Shown in pieces: positions 5,866 to 8,340 of a DNA stretch of 64,000 bases. The stretch's first letter is position 1; each line of letters starts with the position of its first letter. The DNA is from Citromicrobium bathyomarinum (GTDB lineage Bacteria > Pseudomonadota > Alphaproteobacteria > Sphingomonadales > Sphingomonadaceae), in NCBI GenBank assembly GCA_001306305.2, contig CP155577.1, positions 2,711,501 through 2,775,500 of the forward strand, read 5' to 3'. The notes beneath the pieces were generated by a model. That model saw only the letters and a list, made by a program, of their open reading frames with translations. It searched no databases and was not told the origin of the DNA. The translations under genes were made by a program, and so were the position numbers.

Positions 5866-6687
5866 ATGATCGACCTGCCGACCGCTTTCGATGTCTTCGC
5901 CGATCGCATGATCCGCGTCGTCGTGTTCGACGTGCAGCGCTATCTCGTCGCGGCGGGCCTGTTCACGATCGCGCTGCTGGTGTTCCGCAGCTGGGCGACC
6001 CGCAAGCGTATCCAGACCCGCCGCGCGACGCGCAAGGATTACACGCGCGAGATCGCGTCTTCGCTGCGCACGTCCTTCGTTTTCGCGCTAACCACCTTCC
6101 TGACGCTTGGCCTTCGTGAGATCGGGCTGGTGAAGATCAAGCTGGAAACCTTCACCCTGCTCACCGTCGCGTGGCAGTTCGTGCTGATCGTCCTCGCGCA
6201 TGATGCCTATTTCTACTGGATGCACCGCGGGCTGCATCACAAGCGGCTGTTCCGCGCGACGCACCTGCATCATCACAAATCGCGCACGCCCACGCCGTGG
6301 ACCGCCTACAGCTTCTCGAGCTGGGAGGCGGTGACCGAGGCGCTGTTCATCCCGATCTTCATGCTCGCGACCAGCACGATGGGCTTCGCGATGACCGGTC
6401 TCGCCGTGTTCCTGTTCCTGTGGCACATGATCTTCCGCAACGTGATCGGCCACCTCGGCGTCGAGCTGTATCCGGCGGGCTGGGTTGATAATCGCTGGAC
6501 CGGCTGGTGGAACACGACCACGCACCACGACCTCCACCACAGTTCGGGCAACACCAATTTCGGCCTCTATTTCACCTGGTGGGACCGGTGGATGGGAACC
6601 GAGCATCCGCGCTATCGCGAGGAATTCCGCACGGTAACCGCCCGCACCCGCAGGGCGGCGCGCGAAGCCGGGGCCGCACCGGCCTAA
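5866..6687 (+). CDS. sterol desaturase / fatty acid hydroxylase superfamily membrane protein
   Basis: A 273-residue integral membrane di-iron enzyme. The superfamily histidine clusters are all present: HDAYFYWMHRGLHH near residues 109-122, THLHHHKSRTP near 130 and TTHHDLHHSSGNTNFG near 220-235. Four or more hydrophobic segments lie between residues 25 and 190. Members hydroxylate or desaturate lipids such as sterols, fatty acids, carotenoids or sphingoid-type chains; the substrate here cannot be assigned. The gene stands alone behind the palindrome at 5840-5863. No good Shine-Dalgarno is seen, so a very short leader is possible. It converges on the ECF sigma gene with overlapping stops. Confidence 0.85.
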   Translation: MIDLPTAFDVFADRMIRVVVFDVQRYLVAAGLFTIALLVFRSWATRKRIQTRRATRKDYTREIASSLRTSFVFALTTFLTLGLREIGLVKIKLETFTLLTVAWQFVLIVLAHDAYFYWMHRGLHHKRLFRATHLHHHKSRTPTPWTAYSFSSWEAVTEALFIPIFMLATSTMGFAMTGLAVFLFLWHMIFRNVIGHLGVELYPAGWVDNRWTGWWNTTTHHDLHHSSGNTNFGLYFTWWDRWMGTEHPRYREEFRTVTARTRRAAREAGAAPA

Positions 6688-7889
6688 GATCCCAGCGCGT
6701 CGCGGCGTGCCGCCAGCAAGCGCGCTTCGGCCGGTTCGGGATCGAGCGCCAGCGCTGCGTCATACTCTGCCCGCGCCTCGCTCAATCTTCCCGTGCTCGC
6801 CAGCAGGTCCGCCCGCACCGCGTGGAACGGCAGGAACTGCGTCAGCCGTCCGGTCTCGATCGCATCGAGCGCCGCCAGCCCCTCTTCGGCCGAGGTCGCG
6901 CGCGCCAGTGCCAGCGCGCGGTTGACCGCGACCACCGGCGTCGGACGCATCATCGCAAGCACATCGTATAGGCGGAGGATCGCAGCCCAATCGGTTCGCC
7001 CCGTCTCCCGTCGCAGGCAGTGGACCAAGTGAATCCCCGCTAGCACCTGAAGCGACCCCGGCTTGCCGATCGCGGTCGCCCGGTCGAGCGCAGCGCGCCC
7101 CGCTTCGATCCGCGCAAGATCCCATTGCGCAACGTCCTGTCCGGACAGGGGAATCATGGTGCCTTCGCGATCCACCCGCGCCGCCTCGCGAGAGCGCACG
7201 AGGCAGACCAGTGCCAGCAGCCCGTGCGCTTCCGCCTCCTGCGGCATCAGTTCGACCAGCAGCACCGCCAGCCGTTCGACTTCGGGTGCAAGCCCCTCGG
7301 TCTCCCCGGTACCCGCAGCATTGCGATAGGCGATCGCCAGCGCGGTCTCCAGCGTTTCCAGTACGGTACCGACCCGGAATTGCCATTCGCGGGACGGTGG
7401 CGTCTCGAAAGGAATATTGGCCGCCTTGATCTTGGCCTTGGCGCGGGTCAGCCGCTGGTACATCGCGGGCTCTGCAACGAGAAATGCGCGCGCTATCCGC
7501 GCGACCGACACACCGCAGATGACCCGCAGCGCCAGCGCGATCCGCGCCTCGCGGGCGAGCGCCGGATGGCAGCAGGTGAACAGCAGCCGCAGCCGGTCGT
7601 CGGGGATCGGCTCGGGAAAGGCGATCACTTCGCCCACCGAGTCCGAGTCCGGCTGGTCCGCCAGCACACGCGCCTCTCGATCGGCCCTGCGTAGTGCATC
7701 GAGAGCGCGCCGCCGCGCGGCAACGTAGAGCCACGCGGCGGCGTCGCGGATCGGCGCAGCCTCGCGCAGTGCCGCCTCGCACGCGGCGGAGAACGCGTCC
7801 TCCGCCAGGTCAAGATCGCGGAACCGCGCGGCGAGGGCCGCGACAACCCTCGGCCGCGCAGCCGCGAGCAGGTCTGCCAGCGGGTCCAG
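6684..7889 (-). CDS. ECF42-type RNA polymerase sigma factor with C-terminal TPR-like domain (non-standard start)
   Basis: About 401 residues if read from CTG at 7889. Region 2 runs from RPRVVAALAARFRDLDLAEDAF to WLYVAARRRALDALRR, followed by region 4 with DDRLRLLFTCCHPALA, the hallmark of ECF42. The remaining 220 residues form the helical TPR-like extension of that group. The first ATG, GTG or TTG in frame is GTG at 7667, which would remove all of region 2. Only CTG codons exist between it and the TAG at 7893-7895, which ends the YCII gene in the same frame. AGGA lies 7 bases before CTG 7889, so CTG initiation is my preferred call; readthrough of the TAG is the alternative. Target promoters are unknown. 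Confidence 0.8.
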   Translation of the reverse strand: MDPLADLLAAARPRVVAALAARFRDLDLAEDAFSAACEAALREAAPIRDAAAWLYVAARRRALDALRRADREARVLADQPDSDSVGEVIAFPEPIPDDRLRLLFTCCHPALAREARIALALRVICGVSVARIARAFLVAEPAMYQRLTRAKAKIKAANIPFETPPSREWQFRVGTVLETLETALAIAYRNAAGTGETEGLAPEVERLAVLLVELMPQEAEAHGLLALVCLVRSREAARVDREGTMIPLSGQDVAQWDLARIEAGRAALDRATAIGKPGSLQVLAGIHLVHCLRRETGRTDWAAILRLYDVLAMMRPTPVVAVNRALALARATSAEEGLAALDAIETGRLTQFLPFHAVRADLLASTGRLSEARAEYDAALALDPEPAEARLLAARRDALGS

Positions 7890-7892
7890 CGG

Positions 7893-8246
7893 CTAGTCCT
7901 GCCAGACCGGCCGCACCTCGACCGCACCCTTGCCCGGGATCGGGATTTTCCGCGCCCAACGGACCGCCTCGTCGAGATCGGCGGCCTCGACAATGTAGTA
8001 ACCGCCAAGTTCCTCGTGGCTTTCGGCGAAGGGGCCGTCGTGCAGCGTGCCCTCGCCCCCGTTTTCGTAGCGGATGGTGGTTGCGGTGTCCGCGCCCTTC
8101 AGGCGATTGCCGCTGAAAGCGACCCCAGCGGCGTGCCATTCCTCAGCCAGCTTCATGTGCCCCGCCAGCGTGGCCTCCATCACCGCCGCGCCGTTTTCAC
8201 CCATATAGGCGCTCTCGTCCTCATGAATTAGCAGCATGTATTGCAT
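7893..8246 (-). CDS. YCII/DGPF family protein, ECF42 partner
   Basis: A 117-residue cytosolic protein starting MQYMLLIHEDE; the ATG at 8246 has a GGAG about 11 bases upstream. The YCII fold is marked by LHDGPFAESHEELGGYYIVEA, including the DGPF motif that names this group. DGPF proteins are regularly encoded beside ECF42 sigma factors, as here; they are thought to take part in signalling to the sigma factor, but the mechanism is not established. The TAG stop is followed in the same frame by the sigma factor coding sequence. Confidence 0.87.
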   Translation of the reverse strand: MQYMLLIHEDESAYMGENGAAVMEATLAGHMKLAEEWHAAGVAFSGNRLKGADTATTIRYENGGEGTLHDGPFAESHEELGGYYIVEAADLDEAVRWARKIPIPGKGAVEVRPVWQD

Positions 8247-8340
8247 CGCATGTCTCCGCCTCGGCATCGCCCCTGCGGCGATACTCTACACCCGAGACGA
8301 TGCTGCCGCCCGCTTTTCGACATACTCCGAAAATATTTTC

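Follow-up and report, generated by a model that had tools for sequence, protein, structure and literature searches.

In Citromicrobium bathyomarinum, an ECF42-type sigma factor is very probably translated from a CTG codon, at a low rate, by ribosomes that reinitiate after translating the adjoining YCII/DGPF-domain gene (probability roughly 0.84, judged from comparative sequence evidence). The gene pair lies in a 64,000-nt stretch of CP155577.1, the whole of which is referred to here as the window. The source genome is 3.3 Mb long, and its nearest named relatives are Citromicrobium and Alteriqipengyuania. According to the proposed mechanism, ribosomes would translate the DGPF gene and terminate at its TAG, where the AGGA motif would hold them over the stop codon. 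Reinitiation would then occur at the CUG three bases past the TAG, presumably with initiator Met-tRNA, which would couple sigma factor synthesis to that of the DGPF protein and keep it at a low rate. The lack of a standard start codon, the conservation of the CTG, the selection acting on region 2 and the promoter upstream of the pair come directly from sequence; from them we infer the choice of this CUG over another three codons downstream, termination–reinitiation over independent initiation, and the low yield.

The gene pair and its junction

On the minus strand, the junction reads CAG GAC TAG(7895-7893) CCG CTG(7889-7887) GAC CCG CTG GCA GAC CTG. The first-pass annotation had described a sigma factor frame that lacks any ATG, GTG or TTG before region 2, lies in frame with its DGPF partner across a single TAG, and carries a CTG with AGGA seven bases upstream; each of these points was borne out when the junction was read directly. 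The stop-to-stop frame (6684-7892) comprises 402 codons, with a Pfam match to Sigma70_r2 at residues 11-72, and its first standard start is a GTG 222 nt past the CTG. The 327-aa product from this GTG would keep the Pfam matches to region 4, DUF6596 and TPR and has no Sigma70_r2 match. A gene caller restricted to ATG, GTG and TTG would start the sigma factor at this codon and thereby lose region 2. The features of the pair are collected in the table.

Features of the DGPF–sigma factor pair in the window (Citromicrobium bathyomarinum, CP155577.1)
Feature	Position	Strand	Basis or remark
CTG, proposed sigma factor start codon	7887..7889	-	conserved in 6/7 genus loci with the pair
TAG, DGPF/YCII stop codon, in frame with the sigma factor in Citromicrobium bathyomarinum	7893..7895	-	sequence
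AGGA, Shine-Dalgarno-like, 7 nt before CTG	7897..7900	-	conserved in six CTG loci
ECF42-type sigma factor, 401 residues from CTG	6684..7889	-	Pfam matches, region 2 dN/dS
GTG, first standard start in sigma frame	7665..7667	-	use would remove region 2
DGPF/YCII-domain partner gene, ATG at 8246	7893..8246	-	Pfam PF03795; alignment of 7 genus loci
ECF42-like promoter TGTCGA-N17-CGTC, upstream of the DGPF–sigma pair	8296..8322	-	motif position

ECF42 sigma factors typically carry a C-terminal extension of about 200 residues with TPR repeats and are associated with a TGTCG-like/CGTC promoter motif. The protein studied here matches PF04542 (region 2) and PF08281 (region 4) above the Pfam cut-offs; in its C-terminal extension, DUF6596 scores above its cut-off and the TPR matches fall below theirs. 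An NCBIfam search returned only sub-threshold sigma factor matches. The label "ECF42-type" refers to the combination of sigma-70 regions 2 and 4, the C-terminal extension, the neighbouring YCII/DGPF gene (PF03795) and the promoter. Sinorhizobium meliloti RpoE10, encoded downstream of SMc01151, is described as an ECF42 sigma factor in PMC6180224, and shares with the present protein regions 2 and 4, the long TPR-type C-terminal extension, a YCII gene directly upstream and a TGTCG...CGTC promoter, the promoters given in that paper being of TGTCG-like/CGTC form.

The DGPF start at 8246 is conserved in the genus alignment, and a second open ATG occurs at 8267. Directly upstream of the DGPF gene lies a gene for a Beta-lactamase2-family protein (PF13354; 8341-9501, minus strand), and the ECF42-like promoter falls in the intervening gap. 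At the other end of the pair, the sigma frame and a convergent fatty acid hydroxylase-like gene (PF04116; 5866-6687, plus strand) overlap by four bases at their stop codons (6684-6687). RNA folding at the junction revealed no special mRNA structure (z +0.30 versus shuffles).

The start codon within the genus

The sigma factor gene and the DGPF gene occur in the same seven of ten genomes of the genus, and across all ten they are either both present or both absent. In six of the seven loci, a CTG is found exactly 11 codons before a conserved arginine of region 2 (CTG -11), at a constant distance from region 2 while the flanking codons vary. CTG is a frequent leucine codon in GC-rich genomes, and for this reason its conservation alone would be weak evidence. 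In C. bathyomarinum, G001 and G002, the junction is TAG-CCG/TCG-CTG, with a 3-nt spacer that places the sigma factor in the DGPF frame and with AGGA 7 nt before the CTG. In G004, G005 and G006 it is TAG-CC-CTG, with a 2-nt spacer, a sigma frame that differs from the DGPF frame and AGGA 6 nt away. Since the distance from stop to CTG differs between these two sets, an identical protein can be made in all six only from a start at or after the CTG.

None of the six loci has a usable standard start. The first one downstream lies at +222 in three of the six loci, at +165 in L006 and at +60 in L004 and L005, and those at +60 and +165 already fall inside region 2; in L001-L003, the interval from the TAG, 6 nt upstream of the CTG, to the GTG at +222 holds no standard start at all. 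Upstream of the CTG, five of the six loci reach an in-frame stop before any standard start, and L004 has its nearest one at a distance of 363 nt. The seventh locus (L007, genome G003) has lost the CTG through a 16-column alignment gap. It has an ATG, located inside the DGPF Val-Trp codons, that also stands 11 codons before the arginine and resembles a natural rescue. The first-pass annotation had held that relatives with ATG or GTG in this position, through a one-base difference, would point to a sequencing error or a recent mutation; none of the six loci has such a codon, and the ATG of G003 arose through a deletion and different sequence.

The alignment of this junction thus separates the two routes that had been suggested for translating region 2: the putative CTG start is conserved in the genus (6/7), and the in-frame TAG is not (3/6). 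The in-frame TAG of C. bathyomarinum looks derived, through one base in the spacer, because the frame relation in G004-G006 is that of most overlapping pairs in other genera. Initiation at a CTG is strongly supported by these comparisons for the genus.

All six loci have just two near-cognate start codons in common, CTG -11 and a second CTG three codons downstream (CTG -8). Initiation at CTG -8, or at some other codon, has a small chance of being the true arrangement. CTG -8 is conserved as well as CTG -11, but AGGA lies 15-16 nt from it as opposed to 6-7 nt for CTG -11, and the ATG of G003 stands at -11.

Readthrough of the TAG into a DGPF–sigma fusion, the other route put forward in the first-pass annotation, is improbable. 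In three genomes, the two genes lie in one frame on either side of a TAG, and a minor readthrough product there would be compatible with CUG initiation being itself weak. A fusion is, however, impossible in G004, G005 and G006, so that half of the CTG loci lack the conserved in-frame arrangement characteristic of programmed readthrough, and most gene overlaps in two related genera, g41 and g2, put the sigma factor out of phase with DGPF. As a weak further test, no tRNA with a CTA anticodon was present among six tRNAs in the 400 kb sampled. Frame differences among relatives lead to rejection of readthrough as a general mechanism.

A decaying sigma factor gene that has lost its start codon would account for the lack of a standard start and for the absence of the pair from three of ten genus genomes, yet it is slightly less probable again. 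Region 2, which would be untranslated in a decaying gene, has a dN/dS of 0.09-0.22 between the C. bathyomarinum gene and its genus relatives, while the ten codons preceding it are hardly constrained in those comparisons where both rates could be estimated. Purifying selection on region 2 implies that it is translated. Moreover, the 402-codon frame is intact in C. bathyomarinum, G001 and G002, the CTG state is common to most of the genus loci, and the promoter is conserved. Of 67 loci, 64 carry the motif TGTCGN-N14..19-CGTC upstream of DGPF (L007, L009 and L051 lack it), against 3 of 67 for a reversed-motif control; because the motif is common genome-wide (149 matches versus 52 when reversed), the argument uses its placement ahead of DGPF and nothing else. 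Judged by these patterns, the sigma factor gene is alive and its region 2 translated. A sequencing error or recent mutation is ruled out, since G001 and G002 share the junction, the CTG is found in six genomes and the source genome is one complete contig.

Related genera, probable coupling and a possible role in sigma factor dose

The close clade comprises 70 loci: 7 from the genus, 8 from g2, 52 from g41 and one each from g16, g14 and g77. Most junctions here are xTGA overlaps of the DGPF stop with the sigma factor start, and in g41 and g2 the final DGPF codon and the sigma factor start codon share one base, the third of the former and the first of the latter. Among 51 scored g41 junctions (L119 dropped, L121 set by hand), 24 are GTGA, 18 CTGA and one ATGA, and eight are arranged otherwise. 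Labelled by the first base of the start, 69 loci divide into C (25), G (27), A (14) and T (3). On a quick tree built with the N-terminal tail excluded, label C requires at least eight changes, and well-supported branches force three.

In the 19 CTGA loci (18 from g41 and one from g77), at least ten length changes have occurred between the stop and region 2, all of them multiples of three, which points to the CTG as the place where translation begins. Every one of these loci also has an ATG just before region 2, 21-45 nt downstream of the CTG (24-45 nt in those of g41), and because it is an alternative start, the case is less certain than in the genus. Furthermore, an in-frame ATG or GTG lies 18-21 nt upstream in 8 of the 25 loci labelled C. 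In a stricter set of 11 g41 loci, which have no upstream codon of this kind, the number of length changes behind a locked frame drops to at least four, and CTG initiation in g41 is rated as likely. In two g2 loci, L125 and L128, the junction reads CTGATG; an in-frame ATG comes immediately after the CTGA overlap, so that use of the CTG is not required there.

The junctions resemble those for which termination–reinitiation has been described, namely ATGA gene pairs and GTGA overlaps (PMC6728339 and PMC10666635). Stop and start lie within a few bases of each other in the TAG-CCG-CTG arrangement, where an SD-like motif (AGGA) precedes the stop, and they overlap as xTGA in g41 and g2. The present case differs in that CTG replaces ATG or GTG and that, in C. 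bathyomarinum, three nucleotides separate stop and start instead of an overlap.

Another rare start codon on a regulator is found in infC, which has a natural bacterial AUU start outside the AUG/GUG/UUG set. In the pair described here the codon is instead CUG, which has been kept across a genus and probably recurs in a related one. It is plausible that this weak start controls the dose of the sigma factor. Either the identity of the start matters little under coupling, or weak starts have been kept since little sigma factor is wanted. A sigma factor family in which CTG is conserved in a genus and probably recurs in a related genus offers a natural setting in which to ask whether weak starts are tolerated or exploited by reinitiating ribosomes.

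A more speculative extension, which we consider unlikely, is that tight stop–start coupling has relaxed the choice of start in this family. The third, wobble position of the final codon in the partner gene (Gly GGN ahead of TGA) would then set the sigma factor start as CTG, GTG, ATG or TTG, a silent change would act as a dose dial, and CTG, about a hundredfold below AUG in E. coli reporters, would be a lasting low setting. The terminal Gly codon before TGA, in 28 loci, is GGC in 15, GGG in 11, GGA in one and GGT in one; these counts are near the Gly codon use of G306, with no clear difference (p 0.08 by chi-square, on rows that are not independent), and fit drift as well as selection for weakness.

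Rarity within genomes and families

Initiation at CUG is rare in bacteria. This codon accounts for 0.024% of bacterial initiation codons and is 0.86% as efficient as AUG (PMC11497404), and evolutionary switches to CUG were counted in only 2 of 61,358 ancestral AUG, 1 of 5,080 GUG and 1 of 2,468 UUG starts (PMC5622118). A literature search on ECF42/DGPF, CTG-started sigma factors, non-AUG coupling and Erythrobacter found no description of a CTG-started ECF42 sigma factor in titles or abstracts.

Genome-wide controls covered 464 kb of C. bathyomarinum, which is about 14% of its genome and takes in the window, and 11% of G306. Within the 464 kb, 4 of 315 scored frames had at least 50 positively scoring codons before the first standard start, the sigma frame being one of them. 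Two of the others have no Pfam match and the third has a Pfam domain downstream of its standard start, which leaves the sigma factor gene as the one frame of the 315 with a convincing need for a non-standard start. Of 215 closely spaced gene pairs on the same strand, two lack a standard start from -60 to +90 while coding begins within 60 nt past the upstream stop: the DGPF–sigma pair and a nested frame in L154, which is probably an ORF-calling artefact. CTGA itself occurs at 16 of 84 in-frame xTGA junctions of the same 464 kb, and in all 16 cases, most often CTGATG, a standard start lies somewhere from -60 to +90; in one g41 genome, 16 of 62 junctions are CTGA.

The start codon sets the present gene apart from known ECF42 genes that adjoin a DGPF/YCII gene: in other families, a standard start lies 8-22 codons before the homologous arginine in 28 of 29 loci examined, the exception (L188) having only a GTG at -4 within the span examined. 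Across 92 ECF42-like loci, no standard start is found within 40 codons before the arginine in seven, namely the six genus loci and L032. The last of these (L032:1498-2712, minus strand, genome G046) encodes a second-type ECF42 paralogue placed directly after the DGPF TGA, in frame with it and without ATG, GTG or TTG before region 2; its candidate start is ATT, in the single genome available for that genus.
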